A DNA stretch of 58,222 nucleotides from the NCBI RefSeq assembly GCF_017377505.1, contig NZ_JAFREN010000031.1:1-58222 (forward strand), written 5' to 3'. Positions 8,707-30,713 of this stretch are shown piece by piece. The notes beneath the pieces are model-generated. The model did not search any database. It was not told the DNA's origin and saw only the letters and a list, made by a program, of their open reading frames with translations. The translations under genes and the position numbers were made by a program. Numbering within the stretch: position 1 is the stretch's first letter; each line of letters begins with the position of its first letter. Source of the stretch: Enterococcus sp. DIV0212c (GTDB lineage Bacteria > Bacillota > Bacilli > Lactobacillales > Enterococcaceae).

Positions 8707-8883
8707 CTATTTAAAAAAGTCTAGAATATGAGCCCAAATCTCTTCTTTGAACACATCTTTTGGATTTCCTCCGCCGATCACTCCGTAACCGATCATCGTT
8801 CCGGCAACAAATAAAATAATCACTAAGGCAATCACTACTAAAACTTTCAACAAAGTCACTATAATATAGCGTGTCGAACTCAT
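8707..8883 (-). CDS. epuA: EpuA-like small membrane protein (annotated as RNA polymerase subunit beta, PF11772)
   Basis: A 58-residue protein starting MSSTRYIIVTLLKVLV with one membrane helix (about 8-32) and a GYGVIGGGNPKDVF segment followed by an amphipathic tail, the EpuA family pattern. Streptococcal epuA also lies directly after murA, as here (14 bp gap). The start ATG follows GGGGAAAG. It ends before a strong terminator, closing the ywzB-murA-epuA group. Its role is not established; the frequent database name linking it to RNA polymerase is misleading for a single-helix protein. Confidence 0.8.
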   Translation of the reverse strand: MSSTRYIIVTLLKVLVVIALVIILFVAGTMIGYGVIGGGNPKDVFKEEIWAHILDFFK

Positions 8884-8897
8884 ATCACTTTCCCCTT

Positions 8898-10196
8898 TTA
8901 CTTAACAGTTGACATCTTCTTTTCTACAACTTTCTCGTCATTTACACGTTCCACTTTTGCTCCTAATTTTTGAAGTTTTTCATGGAATTTGTAATAGCCT
9001 CGATCTAAATATTCTAAATGAGATACTCGAGTGATACCATTGGCACGTAGTCCTACTAAAATCAACGCAGCAGCAGCACGTAAGTCAGTTGCTTCTACAG
9101 AAGCACCTTGTAATGATTGACTACCATTGATAATAGCAATATTGCCGTCTATTTTCACATCAGCATTCATACGTTGCATTTCTTCAAGATGTTGGAAACG
9201 ATTTTCAAAAACTGTCTCAGTTACTATGCTAGAGCCTTCTGCTACCATTTGCATGGCAGTCATTTGAGCTTGCATATCCGTTGGAAATCCAGGATGCGGC
9301 AATGTCTTGATATCTGTTGGTTTGATCACTTTAGGACCAACAACACGTAAACCGCCTCTTTCTTCACGAATAACAGCACCCATCTCAGTCAATTTAGAAA
9401 TCAATGGACGATTATGTTCTGGGATAGCTTCTTCGATCAAAACGTCTCCTTCAGTCATTGCTGCTGCAACCATGAATGTTCCAGCTTCGATACGGTCTTG
9501 AACGATTGAATGCTCAACTGCGTGAAGTTTATCCACACCTTCGATACGCATCATTTCAGTCCCAGCACCGACGATTTTTGCACCCATCTTATTAAGGATA
9601 TTTGCTAAATCAACGATTTCAGGTTCTCTAGCAACGTTTTCGATCACTGTCATACCTTTGGCTTTAACAGCTGCCATCATAATATTTTGAGTAGCACCCA
9701 CACTTGGGAAATCCAAATAGATCGTATTACCGATCAATTCATCCGCAATTGCTTCGATATATCCATTTTTTTGAATGATCTTCGCACCTAATGCTTGGAA
9801 GCCTTTCAAATGTAAATCAATTGGTCGCTTACCGATTGCACACCCACCAGGCATTGCAACCTTTGCATGCCCATTACGAGCTAATAAAGGACCCATAACA
9901 ACGATTGATGCTCTCATTTGACTAACATACTCATAATTTGCTTCAATGCCTAAAGGTTGAGTTGCATCTATTGTTACTTGGTTCTCATCTTCATTAAATT
10001 CAATATCTACGTTTAAATGTTTGATTACTTGGTTCATTGTAAAGACATCAGAAAGGATTGGTACATTATTTAATGTTGTTGTTCCTTCTTCTGCTAAAAG
10101 GGTTGCTGCTAAAATTGGCAATACTGCATTTTTAGCCCCTTCGATTTTCACAGTTCCTTTTAATTGGTTACCACCATGAACAATGATCTGTTCCAT
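8898..10196 (-). CDS. murA: UDP-N-acetylglucosamine 1-carboxyvinyltransferase
   Basis: First committed enzyme of peptidoglycan synthesis: transfers enolpyruvate from PEP to UDP-GlcNAc. The 432 residues contain the catalytic cysteine in [18 protein letters not shown] (about C117), the fosfomycin target, so no natural Cys-to-Asp resistance change is present. The N-terminal [19 protein letters not shown] is typical. It lies between ywzB and epuA in the order usual for Firmicutes downstream of the atp operon. Firmicutes often carry a second murA elsewhere; this copy is the murA/murAA position paralogue. Confidence 0.96.
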
Positions 10197-23092: not shown

Positions 23093-25573
23093 TTAAACTA
23101 CACGCTTTTGCTTCTTGATCTTTCTATTTTCTTTTCGTTTTTCAACTTCGTATATCACTCGTGTCATAAACAACGATATATAATTAAAAATTGAACGGCT
23201 ACCAAGAATCAACGGCAAGTAGAATAGAACATTTCTTGTAAATAAAGAGGTCAGCATAAAGAAATCGCCAAAGAATAAGAAACAAACTAGAAAGGCTATT
23301 AGTAAAAGTCCAATCATGATCTGTTTTTTCAAATCTAGTGGTCGGGCAGCTCTTAATAATACTTGAAAGCCAACACAACCTGTAAGTAGTACGCACATCG
23401 TCGAAACATCTTGATGAGATAAATCAAACCAAATCCCAGCAAGCTGTAATACTAAAATATTGAAAACAACGGTCAAGGCTCCTGGAACTGAAATGCGTAA
23501 AATATTGGTTAAAAAATGTCCTTTTATACGCTGATAATTCGGCTCTAACGCTAAAATGAAAGATGGAATTCCAACAGTCAACGTATTGATCGGTGTCAAT
23601 TGTAGTGGCGCAAAGGGATATGGTAAGAATAAAAAGATAAACGTTACTGCAAGAATAGCCGAATAAATTGTTTTGACCATATACATCGAAGCAACTCGTT
23701 CAATATTATTGATGACTCTTCGTCCTTCATTCAATACTTGGATCATTGAACTAAAATCTGAATTCAATAATACAACATCTGACACTGCACGAGCAGCATC
23801 ACTTCCACTTGCCATCGCAACACTGACATCCGCTTCTCTTAACGAAAGAATATCATTGACACCGTCACCTGTCATACAAGTTGTATGTCCATTTTGTTTC
23901 AGCGCTTGAATCAGTTCTCTTTTTTGATAAGGGGTTACCCGCCCAAATACTGTTGTATTTTCAACTAATTCATTAAAGTTGGTCGAATCAGAAACGGTAC
24001 TCATATCAACAAAATTTTCTGCACCAGCGATTCCAGCTTGTTTAGCTATTTGCGACACAGTAATAGGATTATCACCTGAAATAACTTTTAAGGTTACATC
24101 TTGTTTAGCAAAATAAGAGAATGTATCGACCGCATTTTCGCGAATCGTATCAGCGATAATAAAAATACCAACTGTTTCTTTCTTTTGCGGAAGAGTAGCG
24201 CTCGTTAATTCATCTGAAAAATGAACTAAGATCAACACACGATCGCCTTGTTCATTATATGGCGCTAGGATTTCTCTTAAGTCATCTGGAACTTCAGAAT
24301 AAATAAATTCTGGTGCGCCCATAACGAATGAACCTTTTTCTTCAAAGGTCACACCGCTCCATTTTCGATCAGATGAAAATGGAATCACTTCTTTAACTTT
24401 CCAAGTCGCTTGCTGTAATGGAAATCTAGAACGGAGTACTTTAGCTGTTGCATTTTGATCAGATAAACCGGCCATCATTTCACTCATAGCCCGCTCAATT
24501 TCACTAGCTGGAAAACCAGCTTGAGGAATCAGTTCTTTAAATGTCAACGTACCATCTGTAATAGTTCCCGTTTTATCCAAACAAATGGTATCCACACGAG
24601 CTAACGTTTCAATACACGATAGGCGTTGGATCAAGGTTTGTCTTCTAGCTAAATTAGCTGCACCCACAGCAAACGCTACACTGGTCAATAGCATCAACCC
24701 TTCTGGGATCATACTGATCAACGCACCAGAAACTCCTAAAACCGTCTTAGGAAATGACTGGGTAGATTGATATTGCGACCAAAACAGTAACAGCCCAATT
24801 GGAACAATGGCAAAGGTTAATCCTTTAATCAAAAGATTCAGAGAGTTCATTAATTCAGAAGTTGATTTTTTCTCTGTTTTTGCTTCTTTGGATAGTTTTG
24901 ACACAAAATTATCTTCACCGACTGCGGTGATTTTTACAAAACCTAATCCTGAAGTGATAAAACTACCACTCATGATTTTGTCGCCGTTTTGCTTTGTGAT
25001 TTTATCCGATTCACCCGTTAAAAGAGATTCATCGACTTCCATTCCTTCTGCTTGAATCACAATACCATCAGATGGCACTTGATTACCTAAGGTCAGGACA
25101 AGCACATCTCCTAAAACAATTTCATCTTGAAAAATCTTTGTCAGTTGACCTTCTCTTAAAACCGTTACTTCTGTTTTATTGACGATCGATAATTTATCTA
25201 TAGTTTTCTTTGCATGGATCTCTTGAATCACACCAATTGCTGTATTGATAATGATGATCCAGAAAAACAGTGCATTCTTTGGATAGCCCACGGCGAATAC
25301 TGCAATAGCTAAAAATAAATTAATAAAATTAAAAAGTGTCAATGAATTATCTAGAATAATCTGTTTCGTTGTTCTAGATAAATCTTCTACTTCCATATTG
25401 TACTTACCTTCAAAGTAAAGCTGTTGTACTTCTTGATCTGATAAGCCTTTAATATTAGGCGGAATCCGAATGTCGGTGTTATTTATTGGTTGTTTTTGTT
25501 CTTCTGATGAAAGAAACGGTTCATTGTCAATGTCTCTTTTTTTTCTGAATAATTTTTTCATATTCTCCTTCAC
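23093..25573 (-). CDS. CtpE-like cation P-type ATPase
   Basis: Membrane cation pump of 826 residues. Actuator motif LLTGES, phosphorylation site CLDKTGT (about D338), and the hinge TGDGVND are all intact. The helix-4 motif is IPEGLMLLTSVAFAVGAAN, which groups it with the mycobacterial CtpE type linked to calcium, rather than with heavy-metal (CPx) or potassium (Kdp) pumps. There is no N-terminal metal domain. Stands alone between two terminators. Calcium is the best guess; magnesium or manganese cannot be excluded. Confidence 0.88.
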   Translation of the reverse strand: MKENMKKLFRKKRDIDNEPFLSSEEQKQPINNTDIRIPPNIKGLSDQEVQQLYFEGKYNMEVEDLSRTTKQIILDNSLTLFNFINLFLAIAVFAVGYPKNALFFWIIIINTAIGVIQEIHAKKTIDKLSIVNKTEVTVLREGQLTKIFQDEIVLGDVLVLTLGNQVPSDGIVIQAEGMEVDESLLTGESDKITKQNGDKIMSGSFITSGLGFVKITAVGEDNFVSKLSKEAKTEKKSTSELMNSLNLLIKGLTFAIVPIGLLLFWSQYQSTQSFPKTVLGVSGALISMIPEGLMLLTSVAFAVGAANLARRQTLIQRLSCIETLARVDTICLDKTGTITDGTLTFKELIPQAGFPASEIERAMSEMMAGLSDQNATAKVLRSRFPLQQATWKVKEVIPFSSDRKWSGVTFEEKGSFVMGAPEFIYSEVPDDLREILAPYNEQGDRVLILVHFSDELTSATLPQKKETVGIFIIADTIRENAVDTFSYFAKQDVTLKVISGDNPITVSQIAKQAGIAGAENFVDMSTVSDSTNFNELVENTTVFGRVTPYQKRELIQALKQNGHTTCMTGDGVNDILSLREADVSVAMASGSDAARAVSDVVLLNSDFSSMIQVLNEGRRVINNIERVASMYMVKTIYSAILAVTFIFLFLPYPFAPLQLTPINTLTVGIPSFILALEPNYQRIKGHFLTNILRISVPGALTVVFNILVLQLAGIWFDLSHQDVSTMCVLLTGCVGFQVLLRAARPLDLKKQIMIGLLLIAFLVCFLFFGDFFMLTSLFTRNVLFYLPLILGSRSIFNYISLFMTRVIYEVEKRKENRKIKKQKRVV

Positions 25574-25733: not shown

Positions 25734-25765
25734 ATTTTACTTTGTATATCAGTTTGTTTGATTTA

Positions 25766-26191
25766 TAACAGGGTGAGACACACAACAACCGTCATATCCT
25801 GATTATCCTATTGGGATTTCAATCTACTCACTCCATAATAGAGTGAGACGCTGTACCCGTGGGGCTTGTAGCTAAATAGTTGTATTTCAATCCACTCACT
25901 CCATAACAGAGTGAGACTTGAGAAGAAATCTGTTGCACCGATTGATTACAAAATTTCAATCCACTCACTCCGTAACAGAGTGAGACCTGTTTTCATGATA
26001 AACAAACCGCCACTTTGTGTTATTTCAATCCACTCACTCCATAACAGAGTGAGACAGCGGTAAAATTTTTAGACTGTATCTGTAAACGTTATTTCAATCC
26101 ACTCACTCCATAACAGAGTGAGACGCAGGTACAACAAAACATGGGACACGATTTTTCATTTCAATCCACTCACTCCATAACAGAGTGAGAC
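25766..26191 (-). CRISPR. CRISPR array, type I-C-like repeat, no adjacent cas genes
   Basis: Six 34-bp repeats start at 25816, 25884, 25953, 26022, 26091 and 26158; a seventh, half-decayed copy ends at 25779. Spacers are 36, 34, 35, 35, 35 and 33 bp. On the minus strand the repeat opens GTCTCACTC, has a 7-bp stem CTCACTC/GAGTGAG and closes GTGGATTGAAAT, the type I-C layout with the ATTGAAAT handle. The decayed copies lie at the left, so the leader is at the right (26192 onward) and transcription runs leftward. No cas gene occurs in the window. Confidence 0.95.
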
Positions 26192-26269
26192 CGTGAAAAA
26201 TTAGGATTATTCGTCATAAATTACTCACAATCATTAATTTTCCACAAAAAACAACTTGAACATTAAAAT
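26192..26269 (-). promoter_or_regulatory. Probable CRISPR leader
   Basis: AT-rich stretch directly upstream (minus strand) of the intact end of the array, between it and the hairpins following nadE. No clear -35/-10 pair is seen. Confidence 0.45.
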
Positions 26270-26362
26270 AAAATGAGGAAAAGGGCCAAATACAGAGTAT
26301 TTTCCTCTTAATTTTGGTGCGGATGTCCCAGTGATTTTATGGGCACTTGTGGTTCGCACCAA
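26270..26362 (-). terminator. Hairpins following nadE
   Basis: GAGGAAAA (26275-26282) pairs with TTTTCCTC (26300-26307) and is followed on the minus strand by ATTTTATTTT. A second stem, TTGGTGCG with CGCACCAA (26314-26321, 26355-26362), lies nearer the gene. Confidence 0.6.
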
Positions 26363-26387
26363 CAGAATTTATTTAGGAACCTAACTT

Positions 26388-27215
26388 TTATTTCCAAAAA
26401 TCATCAAAAATTGAAATTGGCATATGGCGTTTATGTTGTGTTTTTTTGTACCAGCCTTCGATTGTTTCTCTTGCTTTATCTGATACGGTCTTTCCTTCAA
26501 CATAGTCGTCAATATCATCGTATGATACACCAAGTGCCACTTCGTCAGCTACTAACGGTTTATCATCTTCTAAATCAGCCGTTGGAATTTTGGTATATAG
26601 TTCTTCTGGTGCTCCTAATTCTTTTAGTAAAGCTTTTCCCTGGCGTTTATTTAAACGGAACAATGGTAAAATATCTGCTCCACCATCACCATATTTTGTG
26701 TAGAAACCAGTAATATTTTCAGCAGCATGATCCGTTCCGATAACTGCTCCTGCTTTTTCTCCTGCAATGGCGTATTGAACGATCATTCGCTGGCGTGCTT
26801 TCATATTGCCTTTATTGAAGTCACTAATAGCTACACTTGTTTCACTTAGAGATAAAACACAGGCATCTATTGCAGGTTTGATATCTACACGTAAAGAGAC
26901 ATCTGGTTGAATAAAATCTAAAGCTTTTTTCGCATCCGCTTCATCTGCTTGCTCCCCATAAGGTAGGCGGACAGCAATAAATTGATAACGCTCATCTTTA
27001 GTCTCTTTACGCATTTCTTCCATTGTCATTTGAGCAAGTCGCCCAGCTAATGTGGAATCCTGACCTCCGCTGATACCTAATACCAGCGTTTTTAAAAAAG
27101 GATACTTGTTTAGATAGCTTTTCATGAAATCAATGCTTTTTCGAATCTCTTCTTGTGGATCTATTTGCGGTTTTACACCTAATTCTTCAATAATTGCCTT
27201 TTGCAACGACTCCAT
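26388..27215 (-). CDS. nadE: Ammonia-dependent NAD+ synthetase
   Basis: Last step of NAD synthesis: nicotinic acid adenine dinucleotide + NH3 + ATP to NAD+. 275 residues with the PP-loop [17 protein letters not shown] (about 46-62) and [23 protein letters not shown]. There is no glutaminase domain, so ammonia is the donor. Starts at ATG with AGGAGGAAT. Follows pncB after an 81-bp spacer that carries a dispersed hairpin repeat. Confidence 0.96.
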
Positions 27216-29933: not shown

Positions 29934-29954
29934 ATGATTACAGGAGGGAAACAG

Positions 29955-30713
29955 ATGGAATATACAATTAAAAAAGTCGCCGAATTATCCGGTATCAGTA
30001 CTCGTACTTTACGGTATTATGATGAAATCGATTTATTGAAACCTGCGCGCATCAATTCTTCCGGTTACCGGATTTACGGCACAAAAGAAATCGATTGGCT
30101 GCAGCAAATTCTTTTTTATCGCTCTTTGGATATGAAATTAGAAGAGATCCAGAAGCTTTTAGCAACACCTGACTTTGATCCTCAACATGCATTACAGGCT
30201 CATTATCAACAGCTGCTAGAAAAACGCCAGCAAATCGATCATCTGATTCTAACTGTAGAAAAAACACTACGTTACCAAAAAGGAGAGATAACGATGACTG
30301 ACAAAGAAAAGTTTATCGGCTTTAAGCAAGCAAAATTAAAAGAAAATGAAGAACTTTACGGAAAAGAAATCCGTGAAAATTATGGAGAAGAAACTGTGGC
30401 AGAATCAAATAAACAATGGTTAAACTTAAGTGAAGCTGACTTTAGTGCAATGGAAGCAGCTGAAAAGACAATGTTTGACTCCTTAAAAATCGTGATGAAA
30501 AACCAAGATCTACAATCACAAACAGCGAAAACTGTGTTTGAAAAACATAAAGAATGGCTGACTTATACATCACCAGTTTACTCAGCAGAAATGCATCGTG
30601 GTCTAGGACAAATGTATGTGGGCGATGAACGCTTTGCCGCGTATTATGATGATCGTGTAGGTATCGGTGCGGCTGATATGCTGAATCAAGTCATTCAGCA
30701 TTTTGCAAAATAA
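29955..30713 (+). CDS. TipA/Mta-like MerR-family regulator
   Basis: 252 residues: MerR DNA-binding domain (about 1-75, YTIKKVAELSGISTRTLRYYD), a connecting helix (about 76-110) and a TipAS-type ligand domain (about 120-252, with KHKEWLTYTSP and FAAYYDDRVGIGAADMLNQ). TipAS domains bind thiopeptide-like or hydrophobic drugs. The ATG at 29955 with CAGGAGGG is chosen; an earlier ATG at 29934 touches the -10 box. No efflux gene is adjacent, so the autogenous promoter is the only visible target. Confidence 0.92.
   Translation: MEYTIKKVAELSGISTRTLRYYDEIDLLKPARINSSGYRIYGTKEIDWLQQILFYRSLDMKLEEIQKLLATPDFDPQHALQAHYQQLLEKRQQIDHLILTVEKTLRYQKGEITMTDKEKFIGFKQAKLKENEELYGKEIRENYGEETVAESNKQWLNLSEADFSAMEAAEKTMFDSLKIVMKNQDLQSQTAKTVFEKHKEWLTYTSPVYSAEMHRGLGQMYVGDERFAAYYDDRVGIGAADMLNQVIQHFAK

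Follow-up and report, generated by a model that had tools for sequence, protein, structure and literature searches.

A cas-distal type I-C CRISPR array in Enterococcus and a helically phased dyad in type I-C leaders

In type I-E and I-F CRISPR systems, phased leader motifs act with IHF to dock Cas1–Cas2; a 2021 study by Santiago-Frangos is said to describe such motifs. Structures of type I-F complexes show IHF folding the leader and leader-binding sites on Cas2 (PMC12259127). Both type I-C in Enterococcus and cas-distal arrays are already known: four I-C repeat types, DR8–DR11, have been described in the genus (PMC10165109), and a review of multiple arrays finds that, for arrays sharing a repeat, proximity to cas makes no difference to the likelihood of an update (PMC12814883). 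We analysed a 58,222-nt stretch of Enterococcus sp. DIV0212c (the window); it makes up the entire contig C25 in a genome of 3.54 Mb and 41 contigs. The I-C system of this genome has the same operon order and repeat family as those in the portion of PMC10165109 considered, and DR9, DR10 and DR11, read on the other strand, are identical to repeats in relatives or in the window genome. The window repeat is absent from Table 2 of that paper, and the same portion makes no mention of one operon serving several arrays or of a leader dyad, both of which are features here. As in the arrays covered by the consulted portion of PMC12814883, several arrays that differ in repeat lie far from one cas locus; here, by contrast, the repeat stems differ between arrays while a leader element is common to them. 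Like the I-E and I-F motifs, this element lies upstream in the leader in set phase to the first repeat, but it is a 45-bp dyad, stands at 112–158 bp and occurs in type I-C leaders of Bacillota.

The array (25765..26191, minus strand) comprises six 34-nt type I-C repeats and a terminal half-repeat, with the repeat reading GTCTCACTCTGTTATGGAGTGAGTGGATTGAAAT on the minus strand. The first three full repeats lie at 26158-26191, 26091-26124 and 26022-26055. Repeat 4 (25953-25986) has one substitution and is followed by repeat 5 (25884-25917); repeat 6, the last full one (25816-25849), has two, and the half-repeat (25765-25779) is a degenerate 15 nt. Spacers between full repeats are 33, 35, 35, 35 and 34 nt long, from the leader-proximal and newest, S1 (26125..26157), to S5 (25850..25883); the sixth, ahead of the half-repeat, is 36 nt. 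The repeat is stem-bearing and within the ~32–34 nt of type I-C arrays, its 3′ end closely resembles GTGGATTGAAAY and the spacers fall at ~33–36 nt; the same 3′ end also adjoins Cas8c operons in relatives. The upstream neighbour, conserved in relatives, is nadE (NAD+ synthase; 26388..27215), and a P-type ATPase gene (23093..25573) lies on the trailer side, both on the minus strand. A sequence-only reading had described six 34-bp repeats with a decayed seventh, spacers of 33–36 bp, a type I-C repeat form and these two flanking genes, all of which our mapping bears out; the interval it assigned to the array matches the repeats but omits the leader.

This leader (26192..26387, minus strand) fills the stretch between nadE and repeat 1 and terminates in TTTTTCACG (26192-26200). 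It contains the 45-bp dyad GGTGCGAA...CATCCGCACC (26316..26360), 124 bp ahead of the first repeat, and a second conserved block, T/A-rich (CCCTTTTCCTCATTTTATTTTAATGT; 26260..26285), recognized by sequence comparison; both are on the minus strand. It resembles cas-linked I-C leaders, with the dyad and a TTTCACR end in common with the array on contig C8. No cas family was detected among the window proteins scanned, 9 against NCBIfam and 10 against PADLOC (a subset of the window ORFs), in agreement with the earlier claim that cas genes are lacking nearby. At its N terminus, a 259-aa protein encoded at 29934-30713 on the plus strand matches the PADLOC entry Mad1 (6.8e-13 over ~50 residues), perhaps through a shared domain only.

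A complete cas3-cas5c-cas8c-cas7c-cas4-cas1-cas2 operon, each gene above its NCBIfam cut-off, is located on contig C8, and the sole Cas1 match and sole Cas8c match of a genome-wide search are both there. It is the operon for which the sequence-only reading had proposed to look, and it fits the suggestion that the array works in trans with a distant type I-C locus. By contig geometry the operon lies at least about 95 kb from the window array; a cas operon close outside the window, which the same reading had held to speak against it, is absent. An orphan relic would sit in a genome without a cas operon of its type, and this genome has one. After cas2 on C8 comes a five-repeat array, its last repeat altered, with the repeat GTCTAGCTCTGTTTAGAGCTAGTGGATTGAAAT. 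A search for the exact repeat end AGTGGATTGAAAT gave 40 matches at five places (C1, 18; C6, 6; C8, 4; C25, 5; C28, 7). The window array thus has four sister arrays, and the earlier term ‘isolated’ finds no support. The repeats of the sister arrays differ in stem, that of C8 being unlike that of the window, and a 25-base core of the window repeat, allowing up to three mismatches, matched the window array only (6 matches genome-wide; backward-pattern control, 0). In three relatives with both loci on one contig, these likewise lie far apart: 0.17 versus 3.13 Mb in G009, 1.58 versus 2.36 Mb in G014 and 0.50 versus 1.12 Mb in G007.

The site beside nadE recurs across the genus. We found nadE in 22 of 22 genus genomes and read 1.5 kb beyond it in each. 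At least one repeat is present there in 15 of the 22, and a leader dyad with a half-repeat in G017 and G021, so that 17 of 22 have an array or remnant with leader; neither dyad nor repeat occurs at the site in G002, G005, G012, G015 and G016. Repeat variants and spacers at the site differ from species to species, and none of five window spacers recurs in a set of 220 distinct spacers extracted from the compared loci (ungapped comparison over 28 nt). Cas8c is present in 11 of the 17 leader-bearing genomes, and all six genomes with the window repeat have it. Arrays are longer with Cas8c (6, 9, 14, 9, 6, 4, 16, 8, 13, 18 and 1 repeats) than in the six genomes without it (3, 1, 3, 0, 8 and 0), with a Mann–Whitney p of 0.005 that ignores kinship and a 1.5-kb limit that may clip long arrays. 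G019 runs against the trend: it lacks any match to Cas8c or Cas1, yet its nadE-site array has 8 intact repeats. Intact repeats, which the sequence-only reading had taken as a sign of recent function, therefore do not by themselves prove use.

Several relatives show further peculiarities. Type I-C repeats occur in three genomes that have no Cas8c or Cas1 match, namely G003 (30) and G013 (11), both by pattern search, and G019 (the 8 at its nadE site). In G018, the nadE-site array (L124) has an AGCTC-type repeat and a 114-bp leader, and the cas-linked array (L051, same as L088) a 125-bp leader; this mix of repeats and leaders suggests exchange between arrays. The nadE-site array of G011 (L029, ~8750-9260, minus strand) contains one spacer three times in succession. 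On contig C12 of G010 (L053, L058), cas1 appears as two separate matches, and a TGA interrupts one of them, despite long arrays (16 repeats at the nadE site).

Comparison of leaders defined the dyad as a 45-bp element, GGTGCGRA...AAGYGCACATGA...TYCGCACC, with the halves GGTGCGAA and TTCGCACC. In the window genome, the half-site pattern was matched five times only, once per array, and is absent ahead of the cas operon. For a sample of 398 genomes spread evenly over the class, we examined 62 of the 63 listed over-cut-off I-C Cas1 matches (G341 was left out). An array was present in the fetched stretch at 47 of these 62 loci, 33 of them with the dyad. The other 14 array-bearing loci lack it by the pattern used; three of these have repeats of another kind, and others are G+C-rich. 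Eight loci with a below-cut-off Cas1 yielded 6 arrays and 0 dyads. The pattern also finds cas-distal I-C repeats. Among the matches listed, we picked for their core 22 further dyad loci, not those beside the examined Cas1 genes, although for some the same operon is only a few kb away. I-C repeats occur at 21 of these 22 loci; among 12 control loci that share the ends and lack the core, 0 have them; four of the 22 (L267, L271, L272 and L276) have one exact repeat end only, so ‘arrays’ at these loci includes single repeats. At least 22 genomes among the matches listed have the dyad, 15 with an over-cut-off Cas1 (Fisher test, p 1e-8, a rough value). In a phylum-wide sample of 398 genomes, a stricter dyad pattern was found in 17, of which 13 are outside the class; it was also found in 15 IMG/VR stretches.

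The dyad is constant where repeat stems are CACTC, AGCTC or CTCTC. Canonical I-C repeats carry CGCAC/GTGCG too, and we considered a common recognition of dyad and repeat stem; this was rejected because the dyad is unchanged across the three stems. The dyad also stands ahead of non-I-C repeats at L308, L317, L318, L323, L325 and L328, mostly IMG/VR contigs, so the leader element may be common to other array types. We found no earlier description of the dyad in the literature searched; a prior description is quite possible, and a catalogue of CRISPR leader motifs reportedly published by Buyukyoruk in 2025 may already contain an I-C dyad motif.

The dyad is helically phased to the first repeat. 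From 106 distinct dyads, six without a measurable repeat (L042, L047, L109, L121, L127 and L270) were left out; L121 is the decayed site of G020, where the dyad lies 82 bp from a single decayed repeat. In the remaining first set (n = 100), the interval separating the end of the dyad and repeat 1 was 112–116 bp (52 cases), 123–126 bp (32), 136 bp (3), 146–147 bp (5) or 156–158 bp (8). A second set of 17 later cases gave 113–114, 123–127 or 137–138 bp. The 117 cases combined thus fall into five classes ~10.5 bp apart (112–116, 123–127, 136–138, 146–147 and 156–158 bp), and none of the 117 lies at 117–121, 128–134, 139–145 or 148–155 bp. With one value per family and class in the first set (n = 22), the best period was 10.7 bp (R 0.84). 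At 10.5 bp, R was 0.836, a value reached by none of 20,000 uniform draws, and the second set had nearly the same phase (R 0.71, n = 14, p 7e-4); the null is a simple uniform one and the cases are not wholly independent, but the gaps are plainly empty.

The second set represents 17 of 34 dyads. Of the remainder, six belong to genomes that the first set had covered (L294, L295, L296, L297, L311 and L312), one has a masked downstream stretch, and ten have neither an I-C repeat end nor an array (L308, L314, L316, L317, L318, L320, two in L323, L325 and L328); L326 and L327 duplicate L323 and L314. For six of these ten dyads, de novo repeats of other kinds lie at 122 bp (L308), 123 bp (L317), 116 bp (L318), 178 bp (one in L323), 170 bp (L325, out of phase) and 159 bp (L328).

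The window array, at 124 bp, belongs to the one-turn class, as do the measured CACTC-type nadE-site arrays, with two exceptions: that of G007, at 114 bp, and the decayed site of G020. A distance of 114 bp is also found for the AGCTC-type nadE-site array of G018 and for the C8 array of the window genome. The dyad lies 33 bp from the T/A-rich block in both C25 and C1, which places the extra turn of the window leader between this block and the repeat.

When DNA is bent or looped into a complex, a site on it is expected to present a constant helical face relative to repeat 1. Were the dyad a holding site, its distance to repeat 1 would shift only in steps of about one helical turn. We see an even chance that it is the hold for the integration complex or for a host DNA-bending protein on the leader. 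Bacillota are not known to have IHF; this, with the phased site and the parallel to IHF in types I-E and I-F, leads us to propose a docking or bending site for Cas4–Cas1–Cas2.

The main rival, which we regard as possible but rather unlikely, is that the dyad is a transcription-factor operator for a leader promoter fixed relative to repeat 1, so that the phasing would reflect activator–promoter geometry. Activators often require a set helical face, the dyad half-sites are inverted, and the element precedes arrays that may need transcription. An operator accords less well with a phase held over four extra turns and in distant families, or with the window genome, where the dyad pattern occurs at arrays only and is absent before the cas operon.

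Returning to a holding site for the integration machinery, Bacillus halodurans proteins integrate in vitro into a mini-CRISPR with a 10-bp leader, according to the part of PMC6519985 considered here. Catalysis, this suggests, can proceed without the dyad, whose role would then lie in targeting. Tentatively, and a little short of an even chance, we propose for Bacillota I-C leaders that the dyad anchors an IHF-independent integration complex on one helix face, with zero to four additional turns before repeat 1, and marks cas-distal arrays as valid acceptors for a single Cas4–Cas1–Cas2. By staying constant while repeat stems diverge, it would define array identity for the adaptation machinery in trans. 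The phased dyad offers a sequence handle on how Cas4–Cas1–Cas2 locates the first repeat in bacteria not known to have IHF.

Two spacers matched phage sequences. For S1, an IMG/VR phage contig agrees in 30 of its 33 positions, with no mismatch among the first 23, and TTC, the type I-C PAM, stands directly 5′ of the protospacer. The matched gene encodes a beta-lactamase-superfamily fold protein and adjoins a RecT gene; 41 phage records resemble the target stretch, the best being an Enterococcus phage (16% covered) and 30 being Streptococcus phages. The match of S5 in Streptococcus phage Javan128 (30/34, E 0.04) falls within the gene for the terminase large subunit, and all four mismatches are at one codon position. 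An IMG/VR contig also matches S5 with four mismatches, in a search whose pattern permitted mismatches at one codon position only. The TTC-type PAM that the sequence-only reading anticipated was thus seen for S1; the nearest S5 matches are flanked by ATA and TCA, and seed patterns of S2, S3, S4 and S6, like that of the first C8 spacer, had no IMG/VR match.

The complete operon, the sister arrays, the synteny with species-specific spacers and the TTC-flanked S1 match together point to a cas-distal array in trans use. Most probably, this is a type I-C array at a fixed chromosomal site that is used in trans by the genome's single I-C operon. The array would be transcribed from its leader and the transcript cleaved by Cas5c at the hairpin, whereupon I-C Cascade and Cas3 would destroy matching phage DNA; Cas4–Cas1–Cas2 would insert spacers at repeat 1. 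This assumes that one Cas5c and one Cas1–Cas2 accept both C8 and window repeats despite their differing stems. Taken by itself, the array is nothing unusual within a type I-C system whose arrays are dispersed.

The other fate that the sequence-only reading had allowed, a relic left by an old I-C locus and neither expanded nor used now, is improbable. The two substitutions in the last full repeat and the decayed terminal repeat would suit a relic, as would the remnants at the nadE site of relatives without Cas8c, such as the one repeat of G006 and the half-repeats of G017 and G021; trailer-end decay is, however, usual in live arrays. Against a relic stand the kept leader with its intact end, the complete I-C operon in the genome, spacers that differ between related species, with none of the five window spacers among the 220 compared, and the match of the newest spacer to a phage with TTC.

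Least probable of all the alternatives, and set aside for lack of covariation, is a role for the dyad at the RNA level, as a hairpin, terminator or processing signal within the leader transcript. In favour of this are its place shortly past nadE or cas2 and arms that could pair, but in 100 dyads most symmetric positions pair no oftener than column composition predicts (with a mild exception at position 7/39, 0.77 observed versus 0.65 predicted), most of the leaders whose flanks were read have no T-run after the dyad on either strand, there is no Rfam match within the window, and a hairpin gives no reason for 10.5-bp steps.

Other searches with arrays of the window genome and its relatives were less productive. 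The C28, C6 and C8 arrays gave nothing usable against phages (E up to 0.1), and two phage matches of the C1 array both fall in the leader or past it. The G010 array had a single 74% match. Plasmid searches returned Paenibacillus records only, presumably via repeats, and the G004 array matched only satellite phages, which carry a repeat-like stretch. A single type I-C-like repeat is present in the Streptococcus satellite phage Javan145 (L114, 1501-1534), and Javan156 and Javan89 match likewise. It lies near an integrase gene, in a stretch without annotated features, in satellites of S. dysgalactiae and S. canis, and might be a mini-array or a decoy.
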